Source of the DNA: Myxosarcina sp. GI1
GTDB taxonomy: Bacteria > Cyanobacteriota > Cyanobacteriia > Cyanobacteriales > Xenococcaceae
DNA length: 64,000 bases
Direction of reading: 5' to 3'
NCBI RefSeq assembly: GCF_000756305.1
Contig: NZ_JRFE01000022.1
Coordinates: 202,414-266,413, forward strand
Below the pieces are notes generated by a model, which was not told the DNA's origin, did not search any database, and saw only the letters and a list, made by a program, of their open reading frames with translations. This document shows, piece after piece, positions 1 to 16,091 of this stretch (position 1 is its first letter; every line of letters begins with the position of its first letter). Both the position numbers and the translations under genes were made by a program.

Positions 1-48
1 CGAACGATATTTTTAAATGCGTCCATATATTTATTAGTTATTTATTAG

Positions 49-1068
49 TTAGGTAGAGCGAAAATTAAAACCAGACAGCTTAGAGCGCAAACCTTGTAGC
101 CAGTAAAGCCAAACGCTGTTTTGGATAAAGTCTTGAAGATAGTAGGGAGGATCGTAGTTGGGTTTGCGTTGAATGGTTTGTCTAATTTTCCAAAGAGAAA
201 ACCCCAATATCCAAAGTAAATCGGCGATCGCGGCATACCAGAAGCCATAGTTTTTAGTAAAATATCGCCTGCGCGAATCAAAGCAATATTTTGGTAGGCG
301 TTTGGGTGGTGAATCTGGTACATCTACTCCAGTACTTTGACCGCCAATGTGCATCACCAGACTTTGAGGCACGCACCAGCAAGTCCAGCCAGCCCGTTTG
401 ACTTGCAGACAGTAATCGGTTTCTTCGTAATAGAGAAAATATTCTTCGTCCATTAAGCCTACAGATTCGACCACCTGACGGCGAATCAGCATACTCGCTC
501 CTGGTAGCCAGTCGGTTTCGCAAATTTCATTATTGCTCGGTCGAGCTACAACCCATTTGCTTAAAAGTTTGGATACTATACCCAGGCGCAAACCAGAATC
601 TAACTCGCTTAACAAGCTGGGAAAACGTAGGATCGTTTGCCAAGGAGTGCCGTCGGCTAATTCAAAACCACTACCAGCAATACCAGCTTGAGGGTGACAT
701 TCCATAAAATCAACCAGAATTTTAATTGCCCCAAGACGAATTTCGGTATCGGGATTGAGTAGTAAAAAATACGTAGGTGGATTAGCAGACTGCATCGCTG
801 GACGCATAGCTAAATTATTACCATAAGCAAAGCCACCATTATGGGAAGATGGTAATAAATTTGCCCAGTCTTCCCAGCCTTCAGCAGCGATCGCCTGTTG
901 GATTTTAGCAACCGAACCGTCTTCGGAGTTGTTATCGACTACCGTAACAGTAATTCCTGGTACGGCACGAACTTCTGGTACTAAAGAGCGCAAACAGTTG
1001 ATTGTCAGGTCTGGTGTTCGGTAGTTAACGATGACTACCAGTACATCGGATTGAATGGTGTTGGACAT
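49..1068 (-). CDS. Glycosyltransferase family 2, WbbL/rhamnosyltransferase-like
   Basis: A 339-residue GT-A transferase, probably adding a sugar to a lipid-linked glycan on the cytoplasmic face of the membrane. Seen: an N-terminal VVIVNYRT strand (about residues 11-18), VDNNSEDG near 45, NPDTEI (the DxD-type nucleotide-sugar/metal site) near 105, and FLYYEETDYC near 212, a motif typical of WbbL-like rhamnosyltransferases. A hydrophobic stretch near 280-300 may associate with the membrane. It is the last gene of the leftward polysaccharide set, 124 bases after the peptide synthetase, and that gap is filled with heptamer repeats. Starts at an ATG. The sugar specificity is inferred from family resemblance only. 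Confidence 0.88.
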   Translation of the reverse strand: MSNTIQSDVLVVIVNYRTPDLTINCLRSLVPEVRAVPGITVTVVDNNSEDGSVAKIQQAIAAEGWEDWANLLPSSHNGGFAYGNNLAMRPAMQSANPPTYFLLLNPDTEIRLGAIKILVDFMECHPQAGIAGSGFELADGTPWQTILRFPSLLSELDSGLRLGIVSKLLSKWVVARPSNNEICETDWLPGASMLIRRQVVESVGLMDEEYFLYYEETDYCLQVKRAGWTCWCVPQSLVMHIGGQSTGVDVPDSPPKRLPKYCFDSRRRYFTKNYGFWYAAIADLLWILGFSLWKIRQTIQRKPNYDPPYYLQDFIQNSVWLYWLQGLRSKLSGFNFRST

Positions 1069-1073
1069 GATAA

Positions 1074-1115
1074 AAAGTTAAAAGTTAAAAGTTAAAAGTC
1101 AAAAATAAGAAGTAG
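1074..1115. repeat. Heptameric short tandem repeat (AAAAGTT type)
   Basis: About four period-7 units of AAAAGTT with drift, lying just upstream of the GT2 gene and downstream of the peptide synthetase. A related sequence (ACTACTTGCTACT) continues near 1180. It is one of several such heptamer tracts between genes in this window, and STRR repeats of this kind are known from cyanobacteria. Confidence 0.75.
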
Positions 1116-1192
1116 GAAATAGGAAGCAACAGGTGTATTATTTCAACTAAGCACTAATCACTGACTCCTAACTATCTCCTACTAACTACTTG

Positions 1193-4100
1193 CTACTCGT
1201 TGAGTATCGCATCGAGGTATGGTTGCAGTTTTTCTGCCATAACGCGCACGTGGGGTTCTTGGAGCATACTGGAGTGACCGCCAGGGATGTCATGGGCTGC
1301 GACTCCATTGGTAGCTTGTTTACCCCAACCGAGTAAGGGATCTTTGACTTCTAAGATTGCTGGCGTATCGTCTATGGCTGGATTGTCTAGCTCTAACTTT
1401 TCAGTAGCTCGCCATAAGGTTAATTGACCTTGATAAACTGAGGGCTGATAGTCAGATTCGGCATAGGCATAGATGCTTCTGAGGGGAATATTTTGACAGA
1501 AGCGAGGTATAGTAAGTTGGCGATCGAGACAGTATCTTAAAAGCTTAATCCGCAGATTATCGGTAAACTGTTCGCTCTTGCTACTAATTTCGTAAGTAAC
1601 TAGATTGAATACCTTTCTCGGTAAAACTTTCAAAATATTGGTAACAAATTTGAGTTTGTTAGTTTCTTGTTTGGAATCTATGAGTTTGAGGAAGTTTTGT
1701 TTGCGGACTTGGTTAACCGAACTAAAGTTATCTTGCTCTATTCCTTGCAGATTAATCGCATCGATAATTGCTACCAAAGGAACTTGCTCTCCTTCTGCCT
1801 GAAGTTGGCAGGCAATTTCAAAGGCTAAGACACCACCCGCACACAAGCCACCAATGGCATAAGGTCCTTGAGGCTGCACTTTGCGTATTTCTCTAACGTA
1901 ATGGGCGACGATCTCGGACAAACGAGTATGGAGAAATGGCGAACCAGCTTGGCTATAGGGTCTTAAACCGTAAACAGTTTGTTCTGGTTTGAGATGCTGT
2001 GCCAAATTTAAATAGAGAATTGTTTCTCCATCGGCATCATGAACTAAAAATAGCGGTGGAGTAGTACCTTCTTTGAGTTTGACTACAGAATCAAAAGAAG
2101 TAGTCTTTTGAGGGGTTTGCAGCATTAGTGCTAGCTGCTCGATGGTAGGAGCTTCAAATAGACTAGCTAGAGGTAATTTGCGATCGAACTGCCGCTCGAT
2201 TTCACCAAACAGCTTGACTGCTAATAGGGAATGTCCCCCTAATTCAAAGAAATTGTCTTGAATACCGATAGGATGGATACCCAAAGTATTAGACCAAATC
2301 TCTACTAGCTTTTGTTCGACATCATTGGTAGGTTTGGCTATTTCTGTATCGTCTCTAGAGATATCTGGAGCGGGTAAAGCACGGCGATCGAGTTTATTGT
2401 TGGGTGTCAGGGGCATAGACTTTAAAAACATAAAGCCACTAGGCACCATGTATTTGGGCAATCGCTCTTGCAGAAAAGCACGTACTTCTTTGGTTTGCAG
2501 TTTTTCCGAGCGACTCACTAAATAAGCAATTAGACGTTTGCCATAAGTTGAATCCTCGCTAACTATAATTGCTGCTTCACTAATATTAGGATGCTGTGTG
2601 AGTATGGCTTCTATTTCACCCAATTCGATACGAAAACCACGAATTTTGACTTGGTTATCGATGCGACCTAAATATTCAATTTCTCCATTAGGTAGATAGC
2701 GTGCTAAATCGCCAGTTTTATACATACGGGCGTTAGCTTCTTCACTAAAAGGATTGGGAATAAATTTGGCTGCGGTCAAGTCCGAACGGTTGAGATATCC
2801 TCTTGCCAAACTATCGCCACCAACATGTAGCTCTCCTGGTACTCCGATGGGAACTAGTTGTAAATGGCGATCGAGAATATATGTTTGCAGATGTCCCCAG
2901 GGACGACCGATAGGAACTTCACCTTTAAGAGAATTATCTGCTGGAATTGTATAGGACGTGGTAACAACGGTAGCTTCAGTAGGACCATAAGAGTTAACTA
3001 ACTCTAGGCGATTGCGCTTGCCAGATTCAATTACTTTTTTCTGCCAGCGTTTTACGGGTTCGGGCATTACTGCTTCGCCACCAATAATTACTAATCTTAG
3101 AGATTCTGGAAAAGAAATATCTTTAGCAGTTAATTCTGCCGCTAGCTGATGCCAGTAAGAGGTTGTGAAACCCAATACAGTTAAAGCTAAATTTTCACAG
3201 ATTGAGAAAAAGGTCTTCAAGTCTGTCAGCATCGCATCGGTGCGTAATACTATAGTTGCTCCCACACACAAACCAGGAAAGATTTGTTCTACCGCAGCAT
3301 CAAAATTAATTGAGGCAAACTGAAGTATGCGATCGCTAGAGGTGAAGCGATATCTTCTAATTGCCGATTGACTAAAGCAGCTTAGACCTTGATGGGTAAT
3401 CATTACACCTTTTGGTTTACCTGTCGAACCAGAGGTATAGATTACGTATGCCAGATTATCGGTCGTGATGTTGATAACCGTATTTTCGGTACTGTAGTTA
3501 CTAATCTGTTCCCAATCGGAGTCTAAATTGACGATTTGTGCTTGAGTTTCTGGTAGGTGAGCTTGCCATTTGGCTTGAGTTAACAATACGGCAATTTGGG
3601 AATCGGCAACCATGTAAGCCAAACGATCTTGCGGATAATTGGGATCGAGAGGTACATAAGCACCACCAGCTTTAAAAATACCTAACAAACCGATAATCAT
3701 TTCTAAAGATCTTTCCACACAGATCCCCACCAGTACTTCTGCGCCAACTCCTAAAGTTTGTAAATAATGCGCTAACTGATTAACTTTTTGGTTTAGTTGC
3801 CGATAGGTAAGCTGGCGACCGTCAAACTCAACCGCGATCGCATCGGGGGTACGTTCTACCTGTGCCTCAAATAACTGTCGAACATCTTTACTTTTGTCGG
3901 TTTTGTTAACCCAAAGTTGATTCCAATCGATTAGAGTTTGTTGTTCTGCTGGAGTTAGTAATGGTAAATAGGCAATTTGCGCTTTGGGATTAGTAACGAT
4001 GCCTTCTAACAAAGTCTGCCAATGGGCATTCATTCTGGCAATAGTGTCGCGATCGAACAAGTTGCTATTGTATTCAAAATACCCTGCAATTCCTGTAGGA

Positions 4101-7100
4101 GTTTCGATCGCATCTAAGGTTAGGTCGAACATCGAACTACCAGTGCCTTTTTCCTCAACTTCCCAGGTTAAACCCGACAGCGATTGCGCTGTCGGCAACT
4201 GTTTTTGTAAGGCAAACATGACTTGGAATATAGGGTTGTAGCTTAAATTCCGCTCTGGCTGTAGTTCCTCAACTAATTTTTCAAAGGGTAAATTGGCATG
4301 AGCATAAGCCCCCGATGTTGTCTCCAGAATACGACTCAATAATTCTCGGAAGCTTAAATCGTCTCCTAAATTAGTCCGTAACACTAAAGTATTGACAAAA
4401 AAGCCGATTAACTGCTCTGTATTAGCCGTATTGCGGTTGGCAAAGGGAGAACCAACGATAACATCGGACTGTCCTGTATAGCGATAGAGTAAGACTTTAA
4501 AGGCAGCCAAAAGAGTCATAAACAAAGTAACTCCTTCTTGACGACTTAAAGCATTAAGTGCCTGGGTGAGTTCTGGAGTTAGCTGAAAATAATGGCGATC
4601 GCCCAAATAAGTTTGTACCGCAGGTCTAGATCTATCTGTAGGCAATTCCATCAATGGCGCACTACCTTCAAGCTGCTTGCGCCAATAGTCAAGCTGTTTG
4701 GTATATTCTTCGCTTTGCAACCATTGCTGCTGCCAATGAGCATAATCGACATACTGAACGGTCAAGTCTTCAAGATTAACAGCCGAATTATTAATCAGCG
4801 CATCATAATAACCTGCTAACTCGTCGAATAAAATTTTAATCGACCAGCCGTCAAAGACAATGTGGTGACAGGTAACTACCAGCCAGTATTCATCCGATTC
4901 TAAAGATAATAATATAGCTCTTAGCAATGGTTCCTTAGCCAGATCGAATGGCTGTTTGGCTTCTCTGGTTGCCCACGCTTCTGCCTCGGAAGTGTCAGAA
5001 AGCTCGAAAACTGCTAATTTTATTGCTAGCTCTGTGGCAATTACCTTTTGTGGTTGTCCGTTTACCTCTGGATAAGCAGTGCGGAAAATTTCGTGTCTTT
5101 GCACGATGCGATTGAGACTTTGTTCTAAAACCTCTATATTTACTGCACCTTTGAGTTTGAAAACCAGAGGAATGTTATAAACAGCAGTTTGCGGATTTAA
5201 CTTCTCAAAAAACCAGAGACTGCGTTCGGAAGAGGAAAGGGATAATTCTTTGTTGCGCTCTATAGGTTGGATTGTTACTTTTTGTTCCGATGTAGCTTGA
5301 AGCTCGATAGTTTGAGCCAACTTAGCAATGGTAGGAGCATTAAAAATAGCATCGAGAGCTAAATCGATACCCAACTGCGATCGCATCTGTGCAATAACCT
5401 GCATTGCCAAAATAGAATTACCGCCAAGCTCGAAGAAATTATCTTCAACGCCGACTTTTTCTAGATTCAAAACGCTCTTCCAAATGTCTGCAAGGGACTG
5501 TTCGCGAACTGTACTAGGAGCTTGATAGGATTTTTCCATCGCCTGTCTGATGTCTGGCGCGGGTAAAGCGCGGCGATCTACTTTTCCGTTGGGGGTAAGG
5601 GGTATGGCATCTAGAGTAATAAAGATTGAAGGTACCATGTATTCTGGTAGCTTGGCCAAAAGATGTTCTCGCAGGCGATCGCTACTCAAGGTTTCGCTAC
5701 TAGCTAAATATGCCACCAGGCGTTTGTTACCAGTCAAGTCATCACTTGCCAATACTACCGACTGTTGAACTTGCGGATGTGCGTCTAAGACTGCTTCGAT
5801 TTCTCCCAGTTCGATCCGAAAGCCTCTCAGCTTAACCTGATGGTCTATACGTCCTAAAAATTCAATATTACCATCGCTGCGGTAGCGTGCCAAGTCACCC
5901 GTTTTATAAAGGCGTGGCGATGGTGTATTAGCTAAGGGGTTAATAATAAATTTTTCTTGAGTCAGTTCGGGACGGTTGAGATAGCCACGCGCTAGATTGT
6001 CTCCACCGAGATATAATTCGCCTAAAACGCCGATAGGAACTGGCTCAAAGTGTTCGTCTAAAATATAAGTCTGAGTATTGGCAATGGGACGACCGATAGG
6101 CACGATATTAGAATCGTTTTGTGGTTGACACTGCCAGTAGGTAACGTCGATCGCCGCTTCTGTAGGACCATAAAGATTGTGCAGTTCGCAGTTAAGTTGC
6201 GAGAAAAAGCGTTGAGTAAGTTCGTAGGGTAAAGCTTCGCCACTACAAAAAACGCGCTTTAGAGAACTACAGCGTTCTAAGTTTGGTTCTTGTAAGAAAA
6301 CTTGCAGCATTGAAGGGACAAAGTGCATAGTAGTAATCTGCTGCTGTGCGATTAAATTCGCTAGATAATTACTGTCTTTGTGTCCTTCAGGTCTGGCAAC
6401 TACAATAGTCGCTCCTGTCATTAGCGTCCAGAAAAATTCCCATACCGAGACATCAAAACTAAAGGGAGTTTTCTGCACTACGCGATCGCTACTATTTAAT
6501 TGATACTCTGCCTGCATCCAGCGCAAACGGTTGTGGATACCAAAATGAGTATTCATCACTCCTTTGGGTTTGCCAGTCGAACCCGAGGTGTAAATGACGT
6601 AGGCGAGATTGTTGGCATCTATATCTATATCGAGATTTTCTGGGCTATATGCCTCGATTTCAGCGCGATCGCTATCTAAGCAAATTACCTTGGCATTGTG
6701 GCTGGGTAAAGCTGCTACTAGAGATTTTTGGCTTAACAATACCTCAACCCCAGAGTCATTTAGCATATAGCTCAAGCGTTCTTCGGGTAAGTTAGGATCG
6801 CAAGGTACATAAGCACCACCAGCTTTGATAATGCCTAACAAACCTACTACCATTTCTACCGAACGTTCGATACAAATGCCTACTAGCACTTCTGGTTTTA
6901 CTCCCAGACTTTGTAGATAGTGTGCTAGCTGGTTGGCTCTGCGGTTTAATTCTCCGTAGCTTACTTCTTGTTCTTCAAATACGACTGCTACTGCTGAGGG
7001 GTTTTCTTTTACTCGTTCTTCAAATAGTTGATGGATTAATTTATCGCTGGGATATGCGACTTGAGTTTGATTCCAGTTTTGTAGTAACTGCTCTTGTTCT

Positions 7101-7801
7101 GCTGGCAATAATAAAGGCAACCGAGAAATTGCTCGATCTGGAGTAGCTAAAATTTGCTCGACTAAAGTTTGCCAATGTCTAGCCATGCGTTCGATAGTAG
7201 AGCGATCGAATAAATCGCTATTGTATTTAAAATTGACCGATAAAATTTTGCTGTGGGCTATTTCTAGACATAGATCGAATTCGTTACTTTTTAACTCGAT
7301 CGCACTTTCTTCTCGAACATCAAACCATACTCTAAAATAACTCCAGTCTTGTACCGACAACAATTTATCTTTTAGTAGTTCAAAGTCATATTCTCTATGA
7401 GTGAAAGCTTCTAATACTGTTTGGCGTACTGTAGCTAAATAGTCAGTAAAACTCAAATCTTTTGCCAAACTAGAGCGTAAAATAACTGGAGTCGCGTTAT
7501 TCTCAGTTTTAGCTAGATTAGGAGCAAACACCACCATGTCTTCCTGGTTGGTGTAGCGATAGAGAAAGATTTTAAAAGCCGCTAACAAAACTGTTTCTAA
7601 CGGTGTTTCTTGTCGAACTGATAACTGCTCTAGCTGCTCTACTAGTTCGGTTTTGAGTTTAAATGAATAGGAAGCATAACTGCTGTTAACTGTAGGTGTG
7701 CGTAGGCGATCGCTTGGCAATTCGATCGCAGGTAGAGTACCAGATAGTTTTTGTTGCCAATATTGCCAATTTTTTTGAGTTGTACTAGAAATACTTTGCA
7801 T
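1193..7801 (-). CDS. Two-module nonribosomal peptide synthetase (half-C)-A-PCP-C-A-PCP-TE
   Basis: A 2202-residue synthetase. Residues 1 to about 240 are only the C-terminal lobe of a condensation domain, with no HHxxxDG. The first adenylation domain (about 255-750) has YTSGSTGKPKG near 404 and FDVSVWEF around D450; its pocket reads approximately D-V-W-H-F-S-L-I-D-K, close to the classical serine code. The carrier serine is S796 (ELGGNSIL). A complete condensation domain follows, with HH at 979-980 and D984. The second adenylation domain (about 1310-1800) has D1501 and a pocket read as D-A-E-G-I-G-S-V-V-K, which I cannot assign confidently. The second carrier serine is S1858. A thioesterase follows whose nucleophile elbow is GLCAGG with Cys1987. 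The gene lies inside a polysaccharide gene set, 218 bases after the polymerase. No MbtH or phosphopantetheinyl transferase gene is in the window. The product is unknown; a Ser-X dipeptide or an amino-acid decoration is inference. Confidence 0.93.
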   Translation of the reverse strand: MQSISSTTQKNWQYWQQKLSGTLPAIELPSDRLRTPTVNSSYASYSFKLKTELVEQLEQLSVRQETPLETVLLAAFKIFLYRYTNQEDMVVFAPNLAKTENNATPVILRSSLAKDLSFTDYLATVRQTVLEAFTHREYDFELLKDKLLSVQDWSYFRVWFDVREESAIELKSNEFDLCLEIAHSKILSVNFKYNSDLFDRSTIERMARHWQTLVEQILATPDRAISRLPLLLPAEQEQLLQNWNQTQVAYPSDKLIHQLFEERVKENPSAVAVVFEEQEVSYGELNRRANQLAHYLQSLGVKPEVLVGICIERSVEMVVGLLGIIKAGGAYVPCDPNLPEERLSYMLNDSGVEVLLSQKSLVAALPSHNAKVICLDSDRAEIEAYSPENLDIDIDANNLAYVIYTSGSTGKPKGVMNTHFGIHNRLRWMQAEYQLNSSDRVVQKTPFSFDVSVWEFFWTLMTGATIVVARPEGHKDSNYLANLIAQQQITTMHFVPSMLQVFLQEPNLERCSSLKRVFCSGEALPYELTQRFFSQLNCELHNLYGPTEAAIDVTYWQCQPQNDSNIVPIGRPIANTQTYILDEHFEPVPIGVLGELYLGGDNLARGYLNRPELTQEKFIINPLANTPSPRLYKTGDLARYRSDGNIEFLGRIDHQVKLRGFRIELGEIEAVLDAHPQVQQSVVLASDDLTGNKRLVAYLASSETLSSDRLREHLLAKLPEYMVPSIFITLDAIPLTPNGKVDRRALPAPDIRQAMEKSYQAPSTVREQSLADIWKSVLNLEKVGVEDNFFELGGNSILAMQVIAQMRSQLGIDLALDAIFNAPTIAKLAQTIELQATSEQKVTIQPIERNKELSLSSSERSLWFFEKLNPQTAVYNIPLVFKLKGAVNIEVLEQSLNRIVQRHEIFRTAYPEVNGQPQKVIATELAIKLAVFELSDTSEAEAWATREAKQPFDLAKEPLLRAILLSLESDEYWLVVTCHHIVFDGWSIKILFDELAGYYDALINNSAVNLEDLTVQYVDYAHWQQQWLQSEEYTKQLDYWRKQLEGSAPLMELPTDRSRPAVQTYLGDRHYFQLTPELTQALNALSRQEGVTLFMTLLAAFKVLLYRYTGQSDVIVGSPFANRNTANTEQLIGFFVNTLVLRTNLGDDLSFRELLSRILETTSGAYAHANLPFEKLVEELQPERNLSYNPIFQVMFALQKQLPTAQSLSGLTWEVEEKGTGSSMFDLTLDAIETPTGIAGYFEYNSNLFDRDTIARMNAHWQTLLEGIVTNPKAQIAYLPLLTPAEQQTLIDWNQLWVNKTDKSKDVRQLFEAQVERTPDAIAVEFDGRQLTYRQLNQKVNQLAHYLQTLGVGAEVLVGICVERSLEMIIGLLGIFKAGGAYVPLDPNYPQDRLAYMVADSQIAVLLTQAKWQAHLPETQAQIVNLDSDWEQISNYSTENTVINITTDNLAYVIYTSGSTGKPKGVMITHQGLSCFSQSAIRRYRFTSSDRILQFASINFDAAVEQIFPGLCVGATIVLRTDAMLTDLKTFFSICENLALTVLGFTTSYWHQLAAELTAKDISFPESLRLVIIGGEAVMPEPVKRWQKKVIESGKRNRLELVNSYGPTEATVVTTSYTIPADNSLKGEVPIGRPWGHLQTYILDRHLQLVPIGVPGELHVGGDSLARGYLNRSDLTAAKFIPNPFSEEANARMYKTGDLARYLPNGEIEYLGRIDNQVKIRGFRIELGEIEAILTQHPNISEAAIIVSEDSTYGKRLIAYLVSRSEKLQTKEVRAFLQERLPKYMVPSGFMFLKSMPLTPNNKLDRRALPAPDISRDDTEIAKPTNDVEQKLVEIWSNTLGIHPIGIQDNFFELGGHSLLAVKLFGEIERQFDRKLPLASLFEAPTIEQLALMLQTPQKTTSFDSVVKLKEGTTPPLFLVHDADGETILYLNLAQHLKPEQTVYGLRPYSQAGSPFLHTRLSEIVAHYVREIRKVQPQGPYAIGGLCAGGVLAFEIACQLQAEGEQVPLVAIIDAINLQGIEQDNFSSVNQVRKQNFLKLIDSKQETNKLKFVTNILKVLPRKVFNLVTYEISSKSEQFTDNLRIKLLRYCLDRQLTIPRFCQNIPLRSIYAYAESDYQPSVYQGQLTLWRATEKLELDNPAIDDTPAILEVKDPLLGWGKQATNGVAAHDIPGGHSSMLQEPHVRVMAEKLQPYLDAILNE

Positions 7802-7814
7802 CTGCTCGCTGATT

Positions 7815-7848
7815 ATATTTTTGTAATTAAAATATTTTTGTAATTAAA
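7815..7848. repeat. Two-copy direct repeat upstream of the NRPS
   Basis: Two tandem copies of ATATTTTTGTAATTAAA sit 14 bases upstream of the synthetase start. The whole 7802-8019 gap is very AT-rich and holds no gene. A regulatory role is possible but unproven. Confidence 0.6.
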
Positions 7849-8019
7849 AACTAATAAAAAAAAATGCTTATTTACTTGCAAGTTAATAGAGTTTGCTGTT
7901 AATATTTTTAAGTCCTAATATCAATAAAAATAGTTTGCTGATTTTTTATCTGAATAGAGTTTTTTGTTATTTCAATTTTGTCATTCTTTTTTTTAAACTA
8001 AGTAGTTTCACCCAAATAT

Positions 8020-9417
8020 TTACTGAATCTTCAATTTTTGCTGATGTACGAGCTGTTCGGATTTAGAATAGTTTAAAGCTCGTTTTACTTGAGATTTATA
8101 GCTTTGACTAATAGCCGCACCTGCTACACCACCACAGGCGAAGATAAAGATAGGATTAAGCATGGCGTTGAACAAACTATCTACCATATACAAAATCGTG
8201 ATTGTCAATATGGCAGCAGCAGGAGCAACTTTAGGATTAAACCAATGAACCGCAGGGTAGCGTCTGATAAAGGCGATCGCAGGTAAGAAAAAACTCAAAA
8301 ATACACTTACTACACCTACTAATCCATTTCGTCCAAAGGCAATAATCCACAAACTATCAGTAATAGAAATATCAACTTTTTTGTTTTCCCAGTTATATTC
8401 ATATATTCGACTTCTACCCCAACCGCCCCAGCCAAAAACTAGTTTTTCCCTAGCTTTATCTGTCAGCATTTCTTCATTATTAAATCTAAATTCTATAGAT
8501 TCGATACGCTCTTCGGGAACTATTCCTGACAATGAATGAACTATTTGATCGGAAACATAAGTTTCAGTCAAACTATTTTGGGCTAAGTAAATAGTAATAA
8601 AGGCAATAAAAAATAAGATCGTAACCGAAGTACGAAATTGCCAGGCAACTAACATTACCAAGATGCCTGAAAATAGTAAAAAATATGCTCCAGTGGATTT
8701 AACTAAAATAAAAGTAATTAACAGTGCGGATACCAACCAGGAAATAGGAAATCTCCCAACTTGTCGAACAACATTACACTTCCAGAACCAGATACCGATA
8801 AAAGTAGCTGCCATCATCCACATGCCCACTTCCAGTCCGTGCTGCATAAATACCGATGGACGATACCCATCGTAACGAATTGTTTGAGCGAAAGAAAAAG
8901 GACTAAAACCATAAACTAGACGATGCAGTTGGGGACTCATCCTGATTTCATACAAACACAAAGGAACATAAACTAATCCACCTAAAAAAATGCCTGTTGC
9001 TAACTGCCTAAGTCCAGCCAAACTATTAATATATATGCGACCTAGAAAATAGGGAACGCCCCAGGTTACAGTTTGCATCAAAACCTCTGAAAAGCCATCG
9101 TAAAGTCCCAAGCCGTTAGTTACAGATGACGCAAGAGGACAGCAGCACCATACCAACATGGGCAAGTCAACCCAGCTAAATTTAAAGCTACGCAAACGAT
9201 TGACATCATAAATAACTGTAGCGATTAAAATGCCATAGCAAGTGGCAGACATTTTGGTATAGTCGGGCAGTCCTGGTAGGGGAAATTCTTTTTGAGGCAA
9301 AAATAACCATGCCAGGATAAAGCCGATAATAACCGCTTGACGGGCTGGAAAACGGGTAAAGAAATAACAAATAAGCGGTATCCAGCCGAACATTACCAGG
9401 TAAACGAGAAAAGACAT
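8020..9417 (-). CDS. O-antigen polymerase/ligase-like membrane protein (Wzy candidate)
   Basis: A polytopic protein of 465 residues with about ten or more hydrophobic segments and a loop between later segments carrying FGWGGWGRSRIY, the kind of arrangement found in Wzy polymerases and O-antigen ligases. The open frame runs upstream to 9516, but those 33 extra codons are translated heptamer repeat (a Leu/Tyr/Phe-rich string), so I start at the ATG at 9417 (MSFLVYLVM). It sits between a GT4 gene and the peptide synthetase on the same strand, which supports polymerisation of the repeat unit at the periplasmic face. Sequence families of this kind are weakly conserved, so polymerase versus ligase is unresolved. 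Confidence 0.78.
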   Translation of the reverse strand: MSFLVYLVMFGWIPLICYFFTRFPARQAVIIGFILAWLFLPQKEFPLPGLPDYTKMSATCYGILIATVIYDVNRLRSFKFSWVDLPMLVWCCCPLASSVTNGLGLYDGFSEVLMQTVTWGVPYFLGRIYINSLAGLRQLATGIFLGGLVYVPLCLYEIRMSPQLHRLVYGFSPFSFAQTIRYDGYRPSVFMQHGLEVGMWMMAATFIGIWFWKCNVVRQVGRFPISWLVSALLITFILVKSTGAYFLLFSGILVMLVAWQFRTSVTILFFIAFITIYLAQNSLTETYVSDQIVHSLSGIVPEERIESIEFRFNNEEMLTDKAREKLVFGWGGWGRSRIYEYNWENKKVDISITDSLWIIAFGRNGLVGVVSVFLSFFLPAIAFIRRYPAVHWFNPKVAPAAAILTITILYMVDSLFNAMLNPIFIFACGGVAGAAISQSYKSQVKRALNYSKSEQLVHQQKLKIQ

Positions 9418-9427
9418 AAGACTTATA

Positions 9428-9562
<135 letters not shown>

Positions 9563-9570
<8 letters not shown>

Positions 9571-10675
9571 ATGCTATGGCACTAGCAGTAGACAGGCTAG
9601 AAGGCTGCTGCTTCTCGATCGCTCTTTGTAATGCAACTTCAAAAAGTGAAGTCGCATCCTGCCAACTATAGCTGCCAGCTTTGCTGTATGCCCGCTCGGA
9701 CATAGATTGCCACTCACTATTAGATAACTGGCAGACGTGTTTAATTGCTTTTGCCATATCTAAAGGGTTGTCTGGCTCGACTAAAATTCCATTACCATCT
9801 GCTAATAGTTCGGGAGCGGCACCGCCAGGAACAGCAATAACTGGAGTACGACAAGCCATTGCCTCTAAAATAGGCAAACCAAAGCCTTCCTCACGACTAC
9901 CAAACAACCAGGCATCACATTGTGCATAAATATTTTTAATCGTATCTTGGGATGGCTGTCGCACATATTTGCTATTAGGCGGTAAGGGCAATTCCGAACT
10001 TGGCTTAGAAACACCAAAGGCAACTAAACGTAGTTTGGGAATTTCTTTTTGTACTAGAGCAATAGCTCGAAGATTTATGTCGCAACCCCTCTCTATTTCT
10101 GTGGAATAAAGCATTCCCACTGTGGGAACTTTTTGTTTGCTACGAATAGGTGCATTAAACTGTTGGAGATCGACGCTATTGGGGACAAAGGAAAGATTGG
10201 GATCGCCGTATTTATCTCGCATCAGTTTGAGCAAAAATTGAGAAATAACGATTTTGTGCAGGGGTAGCTGATAAGTTGCCGCGCCAGCACCACCAAAAAC
10301 TTCATGTCCTTGAACGAAATAGGCTTTGGCTCCTTTTTGTGGCGAAAGTTTGGCTACCCATTCGGCGGTATACCAAAACGTGGCGACTACTACATCGGCA
10401 TCTGGTACGTCCTCATCTGCAAGCTGATGTCCTTGAGGAATAATTTTGTGGGGTACATCCAAATTGTCGAAGTGAGAGGGCAGATGTTTGGGTATATCGA
10501 TCCATCCTTGTCCTTTTAGTAGAGAGCGAAACTGCTCTGTTAAGCTAGGCTGCTCGTGTGCTACCGAAACCACAAAAACTTTGTGTCCTCGCTGTTGTAA
10601 GAGTCGAGCGTAAATCGCTACAACCCGAATTCCGCCGCTAAGATTAACAGTAGGCAGTACAAATGTAATTTTCAT
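9563..10675 (-). CDS. Glycosyltransferase family 4
   Basis: A 370-residue GT-B enzyme of the GT4 family. The N-terminal Rossmann half opens with MKITFVLPTVNLSGGIRVV, and the C-terminal half has the donor-binding E-x7-E element in GSREEGFGLPILEAMACRTP (about residues 262-281). GT4 enzymes transfer a sugar with retention, here presumably onto a growing lipid-linked oligosaccharide in the cytoplasm. It begins 21 bases after the flippase gene stop on the same strand, so co-transcription is likely. The C-terminal end lies at the edge of a heptamer repeat tract. The sugar donor cannot be told from sequence. Confidence 0.9.
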
Positions 10676-10696
10676 TTTTTAAAATATCCCTATTTA

Positions 10697-12043
10697 CTAT
10701 AAAATTCTGTCTATGGGAAGTCCGAATCCCCAAATGTATCTGGCTGTCAAAACTACGCCTAGCAAGGCGAAAAGTACCAAAGTCGCCAGTATATCTTGCT
10801 TGAACGTAGATAATTTTTGGCGATATAAACCATAAGCGGTCAAGCCATAAAAGGGCAAATCGTTAAAGGCAATTACAATTACCGCGCCCAAAACACCTTG
10901 AAACTGAAATGCTAAAGGTAAGGCGATCGCCATATAAATAAACTTCAGTAAATTACCCCAGGCGACAAAATTTGGTTTACCAATGGCAAATAAGGCTTTA
11001 TCGCTAGTAATCGACAGCATCAAGGGCCATAGACCTAGTGCCAAAATGGGCAAAATCCAGGCAGCTGGCTCGTATCTGTCGTCGTATAAAAAGGTAATTA
11101 GAAAATCGCCAAATCCAACCATCATGGTTAGTGCGATTGCCTGACCGAGTAAAATTAACCATCGTTGTTCGATAATTTTACGGCGCAATTGCTTACGGGG
11201 TAGACTGGCATATTTGACGATCGTAGGATATAAAACTCGAAAGCTGACTTTACTTACTATTTGTTCGGGAATATCGGCAAAGGTAAAGGCAATGATATAA
11301 AAACTTAGCATTTCTAGAGTAAAAAGTTTGCCTAACATCAGCCTGTCTATTTCTGAAGCCAAAAAGGTCATGGCAGTAGATATAAAGATCCATCTACCAA
11401 AGGAAGAAAGTTCTTTGACTGCTTCTTTATCCCAAGCAAAACGATTGGAAAATTTAGTGCTTAGTCGATGACTCCAGATTAACTCTGCGATCGCTGAAGT
11501 AAGAGTTCCCGCTACTAAAGCCCAAATGCTGGGGCTAAACCAAGCCCAGATAACTATAACCGTTAGCGTAATAATTTGTACTCCCAACTCAAACCTGATT
11601 ACTTTACCCACTTCCATCTCACGCTGGAGAGTAGCAACATTGGTAGAGTTAAAGCCAGCTATAATTGAATTTAAACCAACTATTGGCAACAACCATTGCA
11701 GTCTGGGTTCTTCGTAAAACTGAGCTACTGGATAGGAGATTGCCAGACAACCAAGCCAGAGTATAAACCCCCGGATTATCTGAATTGTCCAGGCAGTATT
11801 GAGAAAAGCGGGATCTTCTCCTCGTTTATTCTGCATGATGCTGGGAACAATCCCAATATCGGAAAAGAGATTTAACCCCATGATAAAAACGTTGACCAAA
11901 GCCATTAAGCCAAATAGCTCTGGAACGAGTAACCGAGTTAAAATTAGATTGCTTCCCAATCGCAGGGTTTGACCAGTTCCGTAACCAAAAACAGTCCAAA
12001 CGGTTCCTGCGATCGCTCGTTTTTTGAAAGTAGCTGATGACAT
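10697..12043 (-). CDS. Oligosaccharide flippase of the MOP family (Wzx-like)
   Basis: A 448-residue polytopic protein. The N-terminus (FKKRAIAGTVWTVFGYGTGQ) and the early RLLVPELFGLMALVNVF stretch are typical of the polysaccharide-synthesis and MOP exporter family, which flips undecaprenyl-linked repeat units across the plasma membrane. Hydrophobic segments run along the whole length, with a charged cytoplasmic loop (ASLPRKQLRRKIIEQRW) in the middle, as in WzxC-like members. The neighbours are a GT4 gene 41 bases upstream and another 21 bases downstream, all leftward, which supports one Wzx/Wzy-type operon. Confidence 0.9.
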   Translation of the reverse strand: MSSATFKKRAIAGTVWTVFGYGTGQTLRLGSNLILTRLLVPELFGLMALVNVFIMGLNLFSDIGIVPSIMQNKRGEDPAFLNTAWTIQIIRGFILWLGCLAISYPVAQFYEEPRLQWLLPIVGLNSIIAGFNSTNVATLQREMEVGKVIRFELGVQIITLTVIVIWAWFSPSIWALVAGTLTSAIAELIWSHRLSTKFSNRFAWDKEAVKELSSFGRWIFISTAMTFLASEIDRLMLGKLFTLEMLSFYIIAFTFADIPEQIVSKVSFRVLYPTIVKYASLPRKQLRRKIIEQRWLILLGQAIALTMMVGFGDFLITFLYDDRYEPAAWILPILALGLWPLMLSITSDKALFAIGKPNFVAWGNLLKFIYMAIALPLAFQFQGVLGAVIVIAFNDLPFYGLTAYGLYRQKLSTFKQDILATLVLFALLGVVLTARYIWGFGLPIDRIL

Positions 12044-12084
12044 GGGTAGTTGTGGGGTGTATGAGTAAAAAAAAGAATTATTGA

Positions 12085-13350
12085 TTAAATAGAACTACTT
12101 ACTGGTACTCGCTCGATCGCTATTTCTGTAGTTAACTGTTTGATTTGAAATTCCTGTTGTCTAAATAGTGCGGCTAATTTCTTAGCTTCGATCGCTACAT
12201 CATGCTGACGAGCTACTTTTGCCGCTCCGCTGCGACCCATTTGACTCAGTTGCTCTGTAGGTAATTGCAGCACCTGACGCATCGCCTTAGTTAAAGCTGC
12301 TGCCGAACCAGAAGGAACTAACCAACCTGAAACTTCGGGTTCTACCAGTTCGGGTATTCCTGCGATATAGGTACTGACTACGGGACGACCCAAAGCTAAA
12401 GCTTCCATAATCACTACGGGCAAACCTTCGGCAAAACTAGCCAGAATTGTAGCTCGCGAATTAAGCATCTGTTGGCAGACTTCATCATTGTTTGCCCAGC
12501 CAGTAATGGTAATGCAATCGTGTAACTTATATCGAGCGATCGCGCTTTCAATTTGCGCTCTTAGTTCGCCATCTCCTACTAAAACCAGCTTAAATTTAAT
12601 TCCTTCTAAAGCTAGCTGATGGGCTGCTTCTAACAATAATAAATGCCCTTTTTGTTCGTTTAGTCTGCCGACGCAAACTAACTGTGAAGTTTCTGGTACG
12701 GGGGTTATCTCTCGCTCGAAAAAGGAGCGGTCTAAACCACAGCGAACGATGTGTATCTTCGACCAGTATTGTCGATCGCACCAACGATAAAGCTGGCTCT
12801 GACAATAAGAACTAATGGCTACGACAAAACTCGCTCGTTTAATTTTTTCTTCTAAAGACAATATCACTGCGCGATCGATGCTTTCTGGTCCATGAACGGT
12901 AAAGCTGTATGGCGGTCCTCCTAAGACGCGACACAACATGGCTACAGCGGTAGGATTGAAGGCAAAATGGGCATGAAGGCGATCTATACCTGCATCTGTC
13001 ACCCAACCTAGCAGTACACAAGCTTCTGCTAGATAAGCTAAATGAACTAAAACTCCCCGATCTTTATGCCAACCACAGGCGATCGCTAACTTGGTTGCCA
13101 TTAAAAATCGTCTGGGTCTAGTTATGGCTACCCGCAATAAACCTACAAGCAAACCAACTATGCCTACTTCTAAGACAAATCTAGTCTTGGCTAACTCTAA
13201 CTTGTCAGCGCGATCGACTATTTCAGAAGGAGAGCGGCGAATCGAAAATCGAAAAACTTCAAATCCCTCTGCTTCTAGGGCTTGAATTTCTCGTCGTATA
13301 AAACTATGGCTAACCGCAGGATATTGATTTATTAAATAAGCAATTTTCAT
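12085..13350 (-). CDS. Glycosyltransferase family 4, colanic-acid (WcaL)-like
   Basis: A 421-residue GT4 enzyme and probably the first gene of the leftward polysaccharide set. Seen: an N-terminus KIAYLINQYPAVSHSFIRRE, characteristic of WcaL/AmsK-like transferases, a VCVGRLNEQKGH strand opening the C-terminal domain (about 225), and the donor site FAEGLPVVIMEALALGRPVV (about 310). The open frame starts with GTG directly followed by ATG; I use the ATG at 13350. The 750 bases upstream are non-coding and divergent to another transferase gene, so promoters for both directions should lie there. Confidence 0.9.
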   Translation of the reverse strand: MKIAYLINQYPAVSHSFIRREIQALEAEGFEVFRFSIRRSPSEIVDRADKLELAKTRFVLEVGIVGLLVGLLRVAITRPRRFLMATKLAIACGWHKDRGVLVHLAYLAEACVLLGWVTDAGIDRLHAHFAFNPTAVAMLCRVLGGPPYSFTVHGPESIDRAVILSLEEKIKRASFVVAISSYCQSQLYRWCDRQYWSKIHIVRCGLDRSFFEREITPVPETSQLVCVGRLNEQKGHLLLLEAAHQLALEGIKFKLVLVGDGELRAQIESAIARYKLHDCITITGWANNDEVCQQMLNSRATILASFAEGLPVVIMEALALGRPVVSTYIAGIPELVEPEVSGWLVPSGSAAALTKAMRQVLQLPTEQLSQMGRSGAAKVARQHDVAIEAKKLAALFRQQEFQIKQLTTEIAIERVPVSSSI

Positions 13351-13353
13351 CAC

Positions 13354-14103
13354 GAAATATTAGTAATAGTTATTATTTTTAACTACGTGCTTAATAGTTA
13401 TTAAATTAAAAGATTGATACCAAACATCGTAACCGATGATTTTGTATATTTTAGTTGTATAAAAATTATATAAAGTTTTAATTTTACAAGTCGAAACTGC
13501 AAAGCTACTGATTAATTGACTTTTGCATAATTCAGGTAAAAATACGAATAAAGCAAATTAAAAAAATTTATCTAGCTTTTAAAAACCTATTATTTGGCGG
13601 AATTCATATCGATTTTGTAAAGCTTTAAGTATATGCCGCAAACCCATCATTTATCTTGAATTTAATATATTTCGAGCATTAATTGCCGACATATTTTACA
13701 AACACTTTTTATCGAATCTTCATTTGAATGTTCAAAAAAATATGTCTTAATAGAAATACAAACCAACCCTATCTATCGAATACGAGCAGCTATACAGTTA
13801 TTTTTTGGCTAGGTAGATAAACTTTGTCACCTATAAAGTGTTTAACAAAAAACAAAAATTAAAACGCCATACGTATATTACTTAAGCAAAAACTTTGGTG
13901 AGAGCTTTTAAAGCCAAATTAAGACAAGAGAATGAAAAATATATTTTTTTGCCGATCTCATGTCTATATATTGTTTGTTTGACAAATTTGTTTGGCAAAA
14001 TCTAAAAACCAAAAGTTAATTTTAAATTAACTAAAAAGCAAGCGTTTTGGTTTACTTCAAACGCAAAAACATTATTGTAATTACTATCTATATTTATAAG
14101 TAA
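13354..14103. other. Long AT-rich divergent intergenic region
   Basis: 750 bases without a convincing gene between the leftward and rightward halves of the polysaccharide locus. It is strongly AT-rich, with many A/T runs. An imperfect palindrome, AGTTAAT/ATTAACT, lies near 14012-14031. No RNA gene was recognised. It probably holds the promoters and long leaders of both operons. Confidence 0.6.
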
Positions 14104-15357
14104 ATGAATTTAAGTTACACACAATTAGTATCGGTAGAGCATATTTATATTTTGCTTGCCTTAGCATTATTAATACCGATCGCGGTTTTATTTATTGAAT
14201 GTCTGGCTGCTTTGTTACCCAACCAAAAACAAGTTGACCTAAAGGCAGCTAGTTTGAAATCACGACCAAAAGTTGCTGTATTGATTCCAGCATATAACGA
14301 GGAAGCCTTAATTGGAAAAACTCTTGCTTCGGTGCTGCCTCAGCTAACCAAGCAAGACGAACTAATAGTCATTGCCGACAATTGCAGCGATCGCACGGTA
14401 GAAATAGCAAGAGAATATACTGCTACAGTAATCGAACGAAAAAATACCTCTCATAGAGGAAAAGGATATGCGTTAGACTGCGGCATTGAGTTTGTTAGCA
14501 AGCTTCCCCCAGAAGTTGTGATAATTCTCGATGGAGATTGTATTATCGCGCCAAACACTATCGAACACCTTACAAGACAAGCGATCGCTACGGGTAGACC
14601 AGTTCAAGCTACTTACTTAATGGAACAGCCAGATGAAACCAGTCTCAAAGACCGTATTTCTATGTTTGCTCTGACGGTCAAAAACTTCGTACGTCTGCTT
14701 GGTTTAAATCGTCTGGGATATCATTGCCTACTTACGGGTTCGGGTATGGCTTTTCCCTGGTCAATTATTAGTCAAGTTCCACTAGCTGACGATAATTTAG
14801 TTGAGGACATGCAGCTTGGTATAGACTTAGCTATTGCGGGGTATTCACCGCTATTTTGTTCGACAGCAAAAGTAATAGGTGCTTTGCCTCGCAGAAGCCA
14901 GGCTGCTACCATTCAAAAAACTCGCTGGGAACACGGTCATTTATCTACTTTACGCACTCAAGTTCCTCGTCTACTTAAAGAAGCATGGATGCAACGACGT
15001 TTAGATTTAGTTTTTATGGCATTGGATCTATCCGTTCCTCCTCTATCTCTTTTGGTTACTATTTGGTTCGTGGTGACAGTAATGGGAATAACCGCAGGAA
15101 TTTTACAAGGACAGTGGAACCTTGGTATTTATCTGACAATCTTTGAAGGAATACTCTTAGTCGTGGCTATTTTGGCAGCCTGGGCTAAATTTGGTCGTCA
15201 AATACTTTCTTTAAAAGCTTTGTTAAGCATACCTGTCTATGTCTTTTGGAAGCTTCCTATATATTTTGCTTTTTTCAATCAACCTCAGCAGCAATGGATT
15301 CGGACAGAACGAGAGGTTCCAAACAGTCAGCTTTCAAAAAGTACCGCCAGAACTTAA
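14104..15357 (+). CDS. Membrane-bound glycosyltransferase family 2
   Basis: A 417-residue processive-type GT2 with an N-terminal membrane segment (about 13-36, rich in Leu/Ala/Ile), a catalytic domain, and C-terminal membrane segments (about 300-360). Catalytic features: VLIPAYNEEALIGKTL near 57, ILDGDCII (DxD-type) near 144, a GSGMAF region near 215, EDMQLGIDLA near 236 and KTRWEHGH near 275 (the Q/RxxRW-like acceptor element). Enzymes of this layout make beta-linked polymers or prime exopolysaccharides. It opens the rightward set, followed by a pentapeptide protein and a Wzc-like protein. The polymer is unknown. Confidence 0.85.
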   Translation: MNLSYTQLVSVEHIYILLALALLIPIAVLFIECLAALLPNQKQVDLKAASLKSRPKVAVLIPAYNEEALIGKTLASVLPQLTKQDELIVIADNCSDRTVEIAREYTATVIERKNTSHRGKGYALDCGIEFVSKLPPEVVIILDGDCIIAPNTIEHLTRQAIATGRPVQATYLMEQPDETSLKDRISMFALTVKNFVRLLGLNRLGYHCLLTGSGMAFPWSIISQVPLADDNLVEDMQLGIDLAIAGYSPLFCSTAKVIGALPRRSQAATIQKTRWEHGHLSTLRTQVPRLLKEAWMQRRLDLVFMALDLSVPPLSLLVTIWFVVTVMGITAGILQGQWNLGIYLTIFEGILLVVAILAAWAKFGRQILSLKALLSIPVYVFWKLPIYFAFFNQPQQQWIRTEREVPNSQLSKSTART

Positions 15358-15469
15358 TTGGTTTTTATCGATCGAGACTATTAACAACACTTCCGACATC
15401 GTATATCTCTTTTCGTCTTTTCAATAGTCAAAAATTTAAACTACTATTTTAAAACATAATAAATTATCG

Positions 15470-16027
15470 ATGAAGCAACATATAGAGCAGTTATTTAAAA
15501 AATATATAGTCAATAATAAAAATACTGACGAAAATTTGTTTTATGTTAACGATTTAAGTAAAACTAGTTTGATAGAAGCAGATTTAGAATCAGCCAACTT
15601 CAACAGATTTAACTTGAGAGAGGCAAATTTATCTAAAGCTTTTTTATATAAAGCAGATTTTGGTTATGCCAACTTAAAAAAAGCAACTTTTAAAGAAGCC
15701 CAAATGTGGTTTGTAGATTTAGGACAAGCTAATTTAGAGGAAGCTAATTTAGAAGAGGCAAACCTCAAAAATGCTTATTTATGGAAAGCTAATCTATCTT
15801 TAGCTAACTTACAAAAAGCTTATTTAAAAAATGCCAATTTAGTACAGGCAAATCTTTGGCGGGCCGATTTAAGATATGCAGACCTTAGAGGAACCAATCT
15901 TCAAGGAACCATTTTAAAAGCAGTACGTATAGACAGAGCAAAATATAACCATCAAACTATTTTTCCCAAAGATTTCGATCCAATTAACTCGGGAATGATG
16001 TTACAAAAAAATGAAGTTACAATTTAA
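15470..16027 (+). CDS. Pentapeptide-repeat protein
   Basis: A 185-residue protein made largely of A(D/N)LxxA-type pentapeptide repeats from about residue 35 to 160 (for example ANLEEANLEEANLKNAYLWK), which fold as a right-handed quadrilateral beta-helix. The first 30 residues and the last 25 are not repeats. There is no signal peptide, so it is probably cytosolic. It lies between a GT2 gene and the Wzc-like gene (64 bases), suggesting a structural or scaffolding role in that assembly; this is inference from position only. Pentapeptide proteins have no common function. Confidence 0.85.
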   Translation: MKQHIEQLFKKYIVNNKNTDENLFYVNDLSKTSLIEADLESANFNRFNLREANLSKAFLYKADFGYANLKKATFKEAQMWFVDLGQANLEEANLEEANLKNAYLWKANLSLANLQKAYLKNANLVQANLWRADLRYADLRGTNLQGTILKAVRIDRAKYNHQTIFPKDFDPINSGMMLQKNEVTI

Positions 16028-16091
16028 CTACATATTTATTTTCTACAAAAGTTACGCCTTACTTGAAAAAATCTAAGTTATATATAAAAAA

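Follow-up and report, generated by a model that had tools for sequence, protein, structure and literature searches.

The window analysed here, a stretch of 64,000 nucleotides from Myxosarcina sp. GI1, contains a run of genes for glycan assembly on the minus strand, into which a nonribosomal peptide synthetase (NRPS) gene is inserted. Read along this strand, an EpsE-like GT4 glycosyltransferase (12085–13353; Pfam and NCBIfam, the latter with a score below the NCBI cut-off) is followed by a Wzx flippase (10697–12043; PF13440, 158.3 bits against a cut-off of 23), a second GT4 glycosyltransferase (9563–10675; Pfam), a Wzy-like polymerase or O-antigen-ligase-like membrane protein (8020–9516), the NRPS (1193–7801) and a family 2 glycosyltransferase (GT2a, 49–1068; Pfam). 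The ORF listing and Pfam thus confirm the same-strand order described in the earlier note, with gaps of 21 to 218 bp. The polymerase is a putative assignment: the Wzy_C score (PF04932, 25.2 bits, cut-off 31.7) is weak on its own, and relatives at E ≤ 1e-40 were found in 87 of 291 genomes. Its TTG start has probably been annotated too early, because alignments with most homologues begin only near residue 34. On the plus strand lie a divergently oriented EpsU-like GT2 gene (14104–15357; NCBIfam score below the NCBI cut-off), which is kept in Waterburya, and a gene for a Wzc-like chain-length protein with a tyrosine autokinase domain (16092–18251; TIGR01007, 127.7 bits against a cut-off of 108.05). 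Beyond the start of the window the run continues with four glycan genes (GT2, GT, hexapeptide transferase and GT2). An initiating polyprenyl-phosphate glycosyltransferase was not found among the 12 cluster proteins scanned; phosphopantetheinyl-transferase-family and Wza-family matches are present in the genome.

The genes upstream of the NRPS are closely spaced (Wzx–GT4 41 bp, GT4–Wzx 21 bp, polymerase–GT4 46 bp). The gap between polymerase and NRPS is AT-rich and measures 218 bp, and 124 bp separate the NRPS from GT2a. A scan of positions 1–14100 returned 19 promoter-like sites, compared to 31.0 in shuffled sequences, and 19 terminator-like sites, which is somewhat above chance (12.1 in shuffles, sd 3.4). 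A single promoter-like match (9/12) was located just ahead of GT2a (minus strand, 1095–1067). In the same scan, neither promoter-like nor terminator-like sites were detected in the 218-bp gap, and the 124-bp gap was likewise free of terminator-like sites.

According to Pfam, the NRPS (2202 amino acids, minus strand) contains AMP-binding, condensation and carrier domains, two of each, and a single thioesterase domain. Adenylation (A), carrier (T) and condensation (C) domains display their core motifs, and the two-module architecture proposed before was corroborated, with an additional half C domain at the N-terminus. This first domain (C1, 7067–7801, inner edge approximate) covers profile positions 174–456. 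It is followed by A1 (5564–7024, edges approximate), T1 (5306–5497; Pfam, LGGNSI), C2 (3932–5251; Pfam, HHIVFDG intact), A2 (2393–3871, edges approximate), T2 (2123–2311, edges approximate; LGGHSL) and the terminal thioesterase (TE, 1253–2056; Pfam, tree, model with a mean pLDDT of 85). The presumed nucleophile of the TE is Cys1987 (codon 1841–1843) in the motif GLCAGG, as indicated by motif and alignment. C1 has neither profile positions 1–173 nor an HHxxxDG motif, as would be expected if the gene were decaying and the assembly line were truncated and inactive. We regard such decay as very improbable: the 6.6-kb frame is open and free of stops, C2 and the carrier motifs are intact, Cys and His of the TE are kept, and partial C domains at the N-terminal start recur among related enzymes.

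The A1 code DVWHFSLIDK, which we take to be a serine code, was reproduced as first reported. The code of A2 (DAEGIGSVVK) presumably resembles a lysine code, and the best single-domain solved relative of A2 is ApnA A1 (4d4g), whose substrates we take to be arginine and tyrosine. Neither the kinship nor the lysine-like code is a test of the substrate.

The gene order of the window, which had been proposed for a search in other genomes, was found nearly unchanged in Waterburya agarophytonicola KI4, with a one-module NRPS in the same slot. As the sole search anchor the NRPS was uninformative, owing to the ubiquity of A, C and T domains: matches were obtained in 100 of 100 genomes, the window's own included. 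The TE and GT2a served as anchors instead. Judged by sequence, the conserved part of the system is the terminal TE, which belongs to a clade in which Cys replaces the Ser that is usual in TEs. Clade membership was defined by the Cys nucleophile motif GLCxGG and a TE HMM score of at least 300; the TE of the window, itself among the 12 rows used to build the HMM, scored 474 bits. Four sequences below 300 bits (L145, L190, L191 and L193) were placed in the clade by hand and all group with it in the tree; a truncated copy of G020 (L052) was dropped and the second ORF of L190 was left out of the clade. The tree, which took in 55 of the 115 other TEs, places the clade on one side of a branch with an SH-aLRT of 97, two members (L143 and L144) being separated from the remaining 31 by the midpoint root. 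L233, counted in a set of 48, falls outside the clade in this tree.

The nucleophile Cys is present in all 33 clade members. Within 5 kb, a glycan HMM match at 100 bits was found for 24 of the 33, compared to 7 of the 115 other TEs (24/33 against 12/115 at 30 bits; 22/29 when the four members added by hand are omitted), a comparison that favours the clade because the HMMs were trained on loci including clade loci. A BLAST-based count gave glycan matches at 12 of 14 clade places and in none of 35 neighbourhoods of other TEs. NRPS genes without glycan genes in related genomes, which the earlier note had named as evidence against its proposal, were encountered in part: for 9 of the 33 clade members a glycan gene was not detected within 5 kb. 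Cys alone is not a marker, because Cys TEs also occur outside the clade (18/115), none of the 18 with a glycan match. A C-A-T-TE gene following Wzy in G046 (L090) ends in a TE of the Ser type, which lies outside the clade and was counted among the others.

These neighbourhoods bear on an alternative according to which ordinary TE action sets the product free, as a dipeptide, cyclic dipeptide or lactone, and the position beside the glycan genes reflects chance or common regulation. In its favour, this genome is rich in NRPS genes (14 C-domain matches), all 100 genomes searched have NRPS matches, and the Acinetobacter NRPS AB3403 (4zxh), the best PDB sequence match of the TE, also ends in a Cys TE. 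However, the near-absence of glycan matches around other TEs, the gene order preserved in Waterburya and the existence of a single ORF, on one contig, encoding carrier, TE and GT2 make such a release improbable. A fold search with the TE of the window did not tell transferring TEs apart from those that hydrolyse or cyclise and was rejected for this purpose: EntF, AB3403 and Pks13 were tied, these and FAS TEs lying within about one Z unit (Pks13 TE, Z 22).

In the window, GT2a is the next gene downstream of the TE on the same strand, an arrangement that is usual in the clade but not universal. GT2a was found within 2.5 kb of 15 of the 33 clade TEs and of none of the 115 others. In a second sample, consisting of the 20 best-scoring of 30 places, the figure was 15 of 20 (12 of 14 on contigs new to the analysis). 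Where no TE immediately precedes GT2a (n = 37, including L033 and L091, whose nearby clade TE is not immediately upstream in the same orientation), the next gene encodes a hexapeptide transferase in 18 cases and a sulfotransferase in 7, these 7 GT2a genes forming a paralogous group; for GT2a genes with a TE (n = 23), a hexapeptide transferase never came next. Of the 17 TE-linked rows in the tree of GT2a, 12 group with one another and apart from most of the remaining rows, with five changes, so that these counts are not independent events. No PDB sequence match of GT2a was obtained at 0.01, and the NCBIfam rhamnosyltransferase model (43.1) scored far below its cut-off of 200.55.

Gene neighbourhoods indicate that what recurs is the pair of TE and GT2a, combined with exchangeable loading modules and found in cyanobacteria and, among the best 80 matches listed, in MAGs labelled planctomycete and proteobacterial. 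The architectures ahead of the TE include A-T-C-A-T, C-A-T, A-T, FkbH-T (FkbH 299–309 bits, cut-off 146.65) and acyl-ligase/KR-T, and one further front-end domain travels with an HPPD-like gene. FkbH is known to load glyceryl onto a carrier (PMC8949500). Several TE–GT2a pairs (among them L177, L178, L182, L263 and L273) have no Wzx/Wzy match within 5 kb, a further point on the unfavourable side of the proposal in the earlier note. They would fit a separate small molecule, in which a free glycolipid or glycopeptide, built with the help of GT2a, carries the acyl or peptidyl group in place of a polymer. We nevertheless consider this unlikely, as TE and GT2a lie together with Wzx and Wzy in the window, in Waterburya and in G045 (TE gene on the opposite strand in the latter), and as FkbH-T-TE would supply only glycerate, an unlikely scaffold and a plausible sugar substituent.

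We therefore favour, with moderate confidence, a role for the NRPS in decorating the polymer of a Wzx/Wzy-type exopolysaccharide locus, with the TE moving the peptide to the sugar handled by GT2a. Module 1 would activate serine and module 2 another amino acid, which may be basic; C2 would couple the two residues on T2. The Cys TE may then take over the dipeptide as a thioester and, instead of simple hydrolysis, transfer it to a sugar, at one of its hydroxyl or amino groups, while GT2a is adding this sugar or just after. This acceptor presumably sits on a lipid-linked repeat unit, which would be flipped by Wzx and then polymerised by Wzy. The 218-bp AT-rich gap and the promoter-like match ahead of GT2a count against this reading, as the genes may not be co-transcribed. 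Attachment of a peptide to an exported glycan, or its synthesis alongside, as suggested in the earlier note, gains from the synteny, the clade-wide TE–glycan linkage and the carrier-TE-GT2 fusion; gene and domain order, catalytic residues, synteny, the TE–GT2a pairing across genomes and the one fusion are seen in the sequences, from which we infer transfer in place of hydrolysis, the sugar as acceptor, the sequence of steps and the second residue. More tentatively, and falling somewhat short of a probable claim, a general glycan-decorating system is conceivable in cyanobacteria and other phyla, in which a Cys-TE and GT2 pair takes acyl groups from interchangeable front ends and fixes them on sugars, the cargo comprising a Ser-X dipeptide, tyrosine, Gly-terminated groups, glyceroyl (FkbH), the product of an acyl-ligase/KR module or a phenolic acid from an HPPD-like enzyme. 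If the favoured reading holds, assembly lines of antibiotics and small molecules also tailor structural polysaccharides, with the TE as a sugar acyltransferase. This would explain a group of NRPS-like genes without an assigned product and make the non-sugar substituents of exopolysaccharides in cyanobacteria accessible to genetics; FkbH, A-domain, acyl-ligase and phenolic front ends would become parts for writing new groups onto polysaccharides. Should the general system exist, front-end exchange would alter sugar-coat chemistry.

With its Wzx, Wzy-like, Wzc-like, GT4 and GT2 genes and the sub-threshold EpsE- and EpsU-like matches, the locus resembles Wzx/Wzy exopolysaccharide loci such as those of cyanobacteria and the eps locus of Methylobacillus. 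To our knowledge, an NRPS between polymerase and GT2a is part of no standard scheme, which agrees with the initial judgement; the layout is not singular, since TE plus GT2a with swappable loading modules recurs. No description of the TE–GT2a pairing was found in the open literature, as judged by titles and abstract openings; a "PKS-saccharide-NRPS hybrid cluster" is mentioned for Gloeocapsopsis (PMC6513891). AB3403 (C-A-T-TE) likewise has a Cys motif, in its case GGWCFGG; we know of no glycan substituent as its product. In the Dlt D-alanylation of teichoic acids, adenylation and carrier functions decorate a polymer with an amino acid using the membrane acyltransferase DltB, whereas a DltB-type Pfam match was absent among the 12 cluster proteins scanned. 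FkbH loading domains occur in relatives that share the window TE; the window enzyme itself has A domains instead. The TE of mycobacterial Pks13 is of the Ser type, and we know of no GT2 partner. As a polyketide synthase, Pks13 has KS and AT domains and another cargo; likenesses are the carrier-TE end and the TE fold match, and its NCBIfam model finds FkbH members at their carrier-TE end, with scores far short of the cut-off set for the whole protein. The Pks13 TE releases its product onto polyols, with trehalose preferred (PMC9210659), a precedent for the transfer proposed here. Since KS and AT domains are absent from the window NRPS according to Pfam, the enzyme is not a Pks13, but it may work in a similar way.

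Open reading frames and Pfam searches confirmed the genes that the earlier note had named as a Wzx/Wzy polysaccharide operon enclosing a two-module peptide synthetase. In the window (contig C22:202414–266413; genome size 7.07 Mb), the minus strand encodes, in transcription order, a GT4 (12085–13353), Wzx (10697–12043), a second GT4 (9563–10675), a Wzy-like polymerase (8020–9516), the NRPS (1193–7801), and the family 2 glycosyltransferase GT2a (49–1068). Beyond the window start (locus L028), the same run continues on the minus strand with genes for a GT2, a further GT, a hexapeptide transferase, and a GT2. Genes for an EpsU-like GT2, a pentapeptide-repeat protein (assigned by eye), and a Wzc-like kinase (14104–18251) are divergent from the NRPS run. 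The 218-bp gap upstream of the NRPS is AT-rich, and a motif scan found no promoter- or terminator-like matches in it. The same scan gave a single promoter-like match immediately upstream of GT2a; terminator-like matches were somewhat above chance across the scanned region, with none in the gap upstream of the NRPS or between NRPS and GT2a. Two phosphopantetheinyl-transferase-family and two Wza-family matches were detected in the same genome, and likely partners are thus present. Just past the glycan cluster, on the opposite strand, two ORFs of 124 aa whose starts resemble double-glycine leaders (..SAISGG; L028:9726–10100 and 10691–11065) adjoin an ABC exporter of the peptidase type and a protein resembling membrane-fusion proteins (L028:11970–15721), all assigned by eye. 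Elsewhere in the window, a 702-aa ORF (51861–53969) displays repeated coiled-coil-like segments when its translation is inspected by eye, and the AT skew is strong (0.32) at 52001–54000.

The NRPS has the architecture half C-A1-T-C2-A2-T-TE. C1 covers profile positions 174–456 only, the HHIVFDG motif is intact in C2, and both carriers retain their serine. The terminal thioesterase (TE) carries GLCAGG, the usual thioesterase motif being GxSxG. The specificity code of A1 is DVWHFSLIDK, which we read as a serine code. With this code and a second A domain (A2, DAEGIGSVVK), the product "Ser-X" proposed before stands. The nearest single solved domain to A2 is ApnA A1, and the second residue X may be basic.

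The same gene order was sought in other genomes and was found nearly unchanged in Waterburya agarophytonicola KI4 (loci L029 and L173), where one strand encodes Wzc, a pentapeptide-type protein, and EpsU-GT2, and the opposite strand encodes GT4, Wzx, Wzy, NRPS, GT2a, GTs, a hexapeptide transferase, and GT2c. This cluster has no second GT4 upstream of Wzy, and its NRPS, 66% identical to that of the window, consists of one module (half C-A-T-TE; code DAEGMGSVVK). A two-module NRPS lies immediately upstream of GT2a in genome G020 and in Pleurocapsa MO_192.B19. Wzy relatives at E ≤ 1e-40 and GT2a relatives at E ≤ 1e-60 each occur in 87 of the 291 genomes of the order; where both are present, the interval between them is often filled by other genes (40 loci examined), namely GT-like genes, sulfotransferases (where scanned), or a protein about 580 residues long that, in the one case scanned, had no Pfam match. 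In many clusters, an ORF of 576–594 aa directly follows Wzy (L059:9225–10973; also L060, L066, L074, L075, L078, L080, L082, and L087), kinship being judged from length and position only; the L059 member, the one scanned, had no Pfam or NCBIfam match at 0.001. In relatives, sulfotransferase genes, some of them in consecutive runs, lie downstream of Wzy or between NRPS and GT2a (L033:4831–6821, L046:1523–3473, L083:3168–6373, L058:7113–8069); within the L046 stretch, the gene scanned was 1523–2482, which is the same gene as L052:8023–8982. An A-T-TE/Wzx/GT cluster in genome G125 includes a 630-aa protein (L143:13476–15368) with a weak glutamine-amidotransferase match, asparagine-synthetase-like by eye.

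The constant part across the relatives is the TE together with GT2a. Used alone as the query, the TE yielded 11 places down to 1.5e-73, followed by a step to 1.4e-51. The best 80 loci of a scan of named genomes with the TE alignment were used, and the comparison set over all loci comprised 148 distinct TEs, 33 of the GLCxGG clade and 115 others. The cysteine was present in 33/33 clade TEs versus 18/115 others. In a tree of the 33 clade TEs and 55 of the 115 others, a single branch (SH-aLRT 97) separates the clade from the rest. Using glycan-gene HMMs partly trained on clade loci, matches of at least 100 bits within 5 kb were obtained for 24/33 clade members versus 7/115 others (Fisher p 2e-14, kinship ignored), and at 30 bits for 24/33 versus 12/115. 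For nine of the 33, some of them at contig ends, these HMMs detected no glycan gene within 5 kb. By BLAST, 12 of 14 clade places versus none of 35 other-TE neighborhoods had a glycan match. GT2a itself was located within 2.5 kb of the TE in 15/33 versus 0/115. A class-wide TE-profile search (291 genomes) was bimodal, with 32 places scoring at least 320 bits and the next one 234. In a second sample, restricted to clade-profile places and consisting of the 20 best-scoring of 30 outside genomes G000 and G132, GT2a was within 2.5 kb in 15; six of the 20 contigs, matched by length, were shared with the named-genome scan, and 12 of the 14 new ones had the pair. The joint list holds 48 distinct TEs, including that of L233, which falls outside the clade on the TE tree. 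GT2a follows downstream within 2.5 kb in 26 of these (24 on the same strand, 20 within 150 bp). Across the 26 pairs, distances between TEs correlate with those between GT2a proteins (Mantel r 0.75, a value reached in none of 5000 permutations), a correlation that could come from common descent alone. No description of the pairing was found in titles and abstract beginnings of the open-access literature.

The loading modules in front of the TE are variable. FkbH-T-TE proteins of about 1000 aa are encoded in Elainella (L177) and in MAGs of Isosphaeraceae (L176), Planctomycetales (L185), and Proteobacteria (L190), with FkbH scores of 299 to 309 bits (TIGR01686, cut-off 146.65); a protein of Leptolyngbya DLM2.Bin15 (L182) is 56% identical to them. 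Glyceryl loading onto carriers by FkbH is described in PMC8949500. Genome G045 encodes a 1715-aa protein with a non-peptide front end (L072:10561–15708), composed of an acyl-ligase-type domain, which we read as a FAAL, followed by KR, carrier, and TE. Proteins of 1714–1715 aa in G092, G109, and Symploca SIO1C2 (L091:5717–10864, L141:60–5204, L172:5774–10921), likened by length and TE, have closely related TEs with the same cysteine. All four of these proteins are encoded near GT2a, further GTs, or genes of dTDP-sugar type (by eye). Further clade enzymes have Tyr-like or Gly-like A-domain codes. The code SIFHSGICMK, found in 11 of 31 proteins analyzed, lacks the Asp responsible for binding the amino group of the amino acid. 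In the fetched stretches of ten of these 11, there is a 4-hydroxyphenylpyruvate dioxygenase-like gene (Pfam for two; PDB relatives), located at L063:752–1912, L046:6035–7171, L178:4416–5501, and in L257, L263, L265, L268, L272, L273, and L276; the other fetched loci had none at E 1e-15. Because code and gene travel together, a phenolic acid is suggested as the activated acid.

The gene beside a GT2a-type glycosyltransferase tends to encode a sugar-modifying enzyme. A hexapeptide transferase is next after GT2a in 18 of 37 cases without a TE directly upstream versus 0 of 23 with one; Pfam detected the repeats in three of the 18 and in one further gene of this kind that is not an immediate neighbor. 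A paralogous GT2a group accounts for seven of the 37, each with a sulfotransferase as the next gene (one identified by Pfam, the other six 67% to 75% identical to it). The TE assembly line thus occupies a like place beside GT2a. In the GT2a phylogeny, 12 of the 17 rows linked to a TE fall outside the main body of the remaining rows and five within it (five changes, with a long-branch warning), so these are few independent events. In L193, a contig of a MAG labeled Glaciihabitans, possibly wrongly, a 732-aa ORF unites carrier (2–55), TE (80–345), and GT2 (396–635) in one protein; it scores 352 with the GT2a HMM, and further glycosyltransferase matches adjoin it.

From these sequence comparisons, we read NRPS and TE as decorating the sugar handled by GT2a before export. 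The NRPS would supply an aminoacyl or dipeptidyl group, which the TE would place on that sugar prior to flipping by Wzx. Modeled with AlphaFold (mean pLDDT 85), the TE has a long helix (155–199) in the lid region. In a fold search, the model matched the TEs of EntF, AB3403, and Pks13 alike, so the fold does not tell transfer from hydrolysis. Release onto polyols, with trehalose preferred, is described for the Pks13 TE in PMC9210659 and provides a precedent for the proposed transfer to a sugar by the TE of the window.
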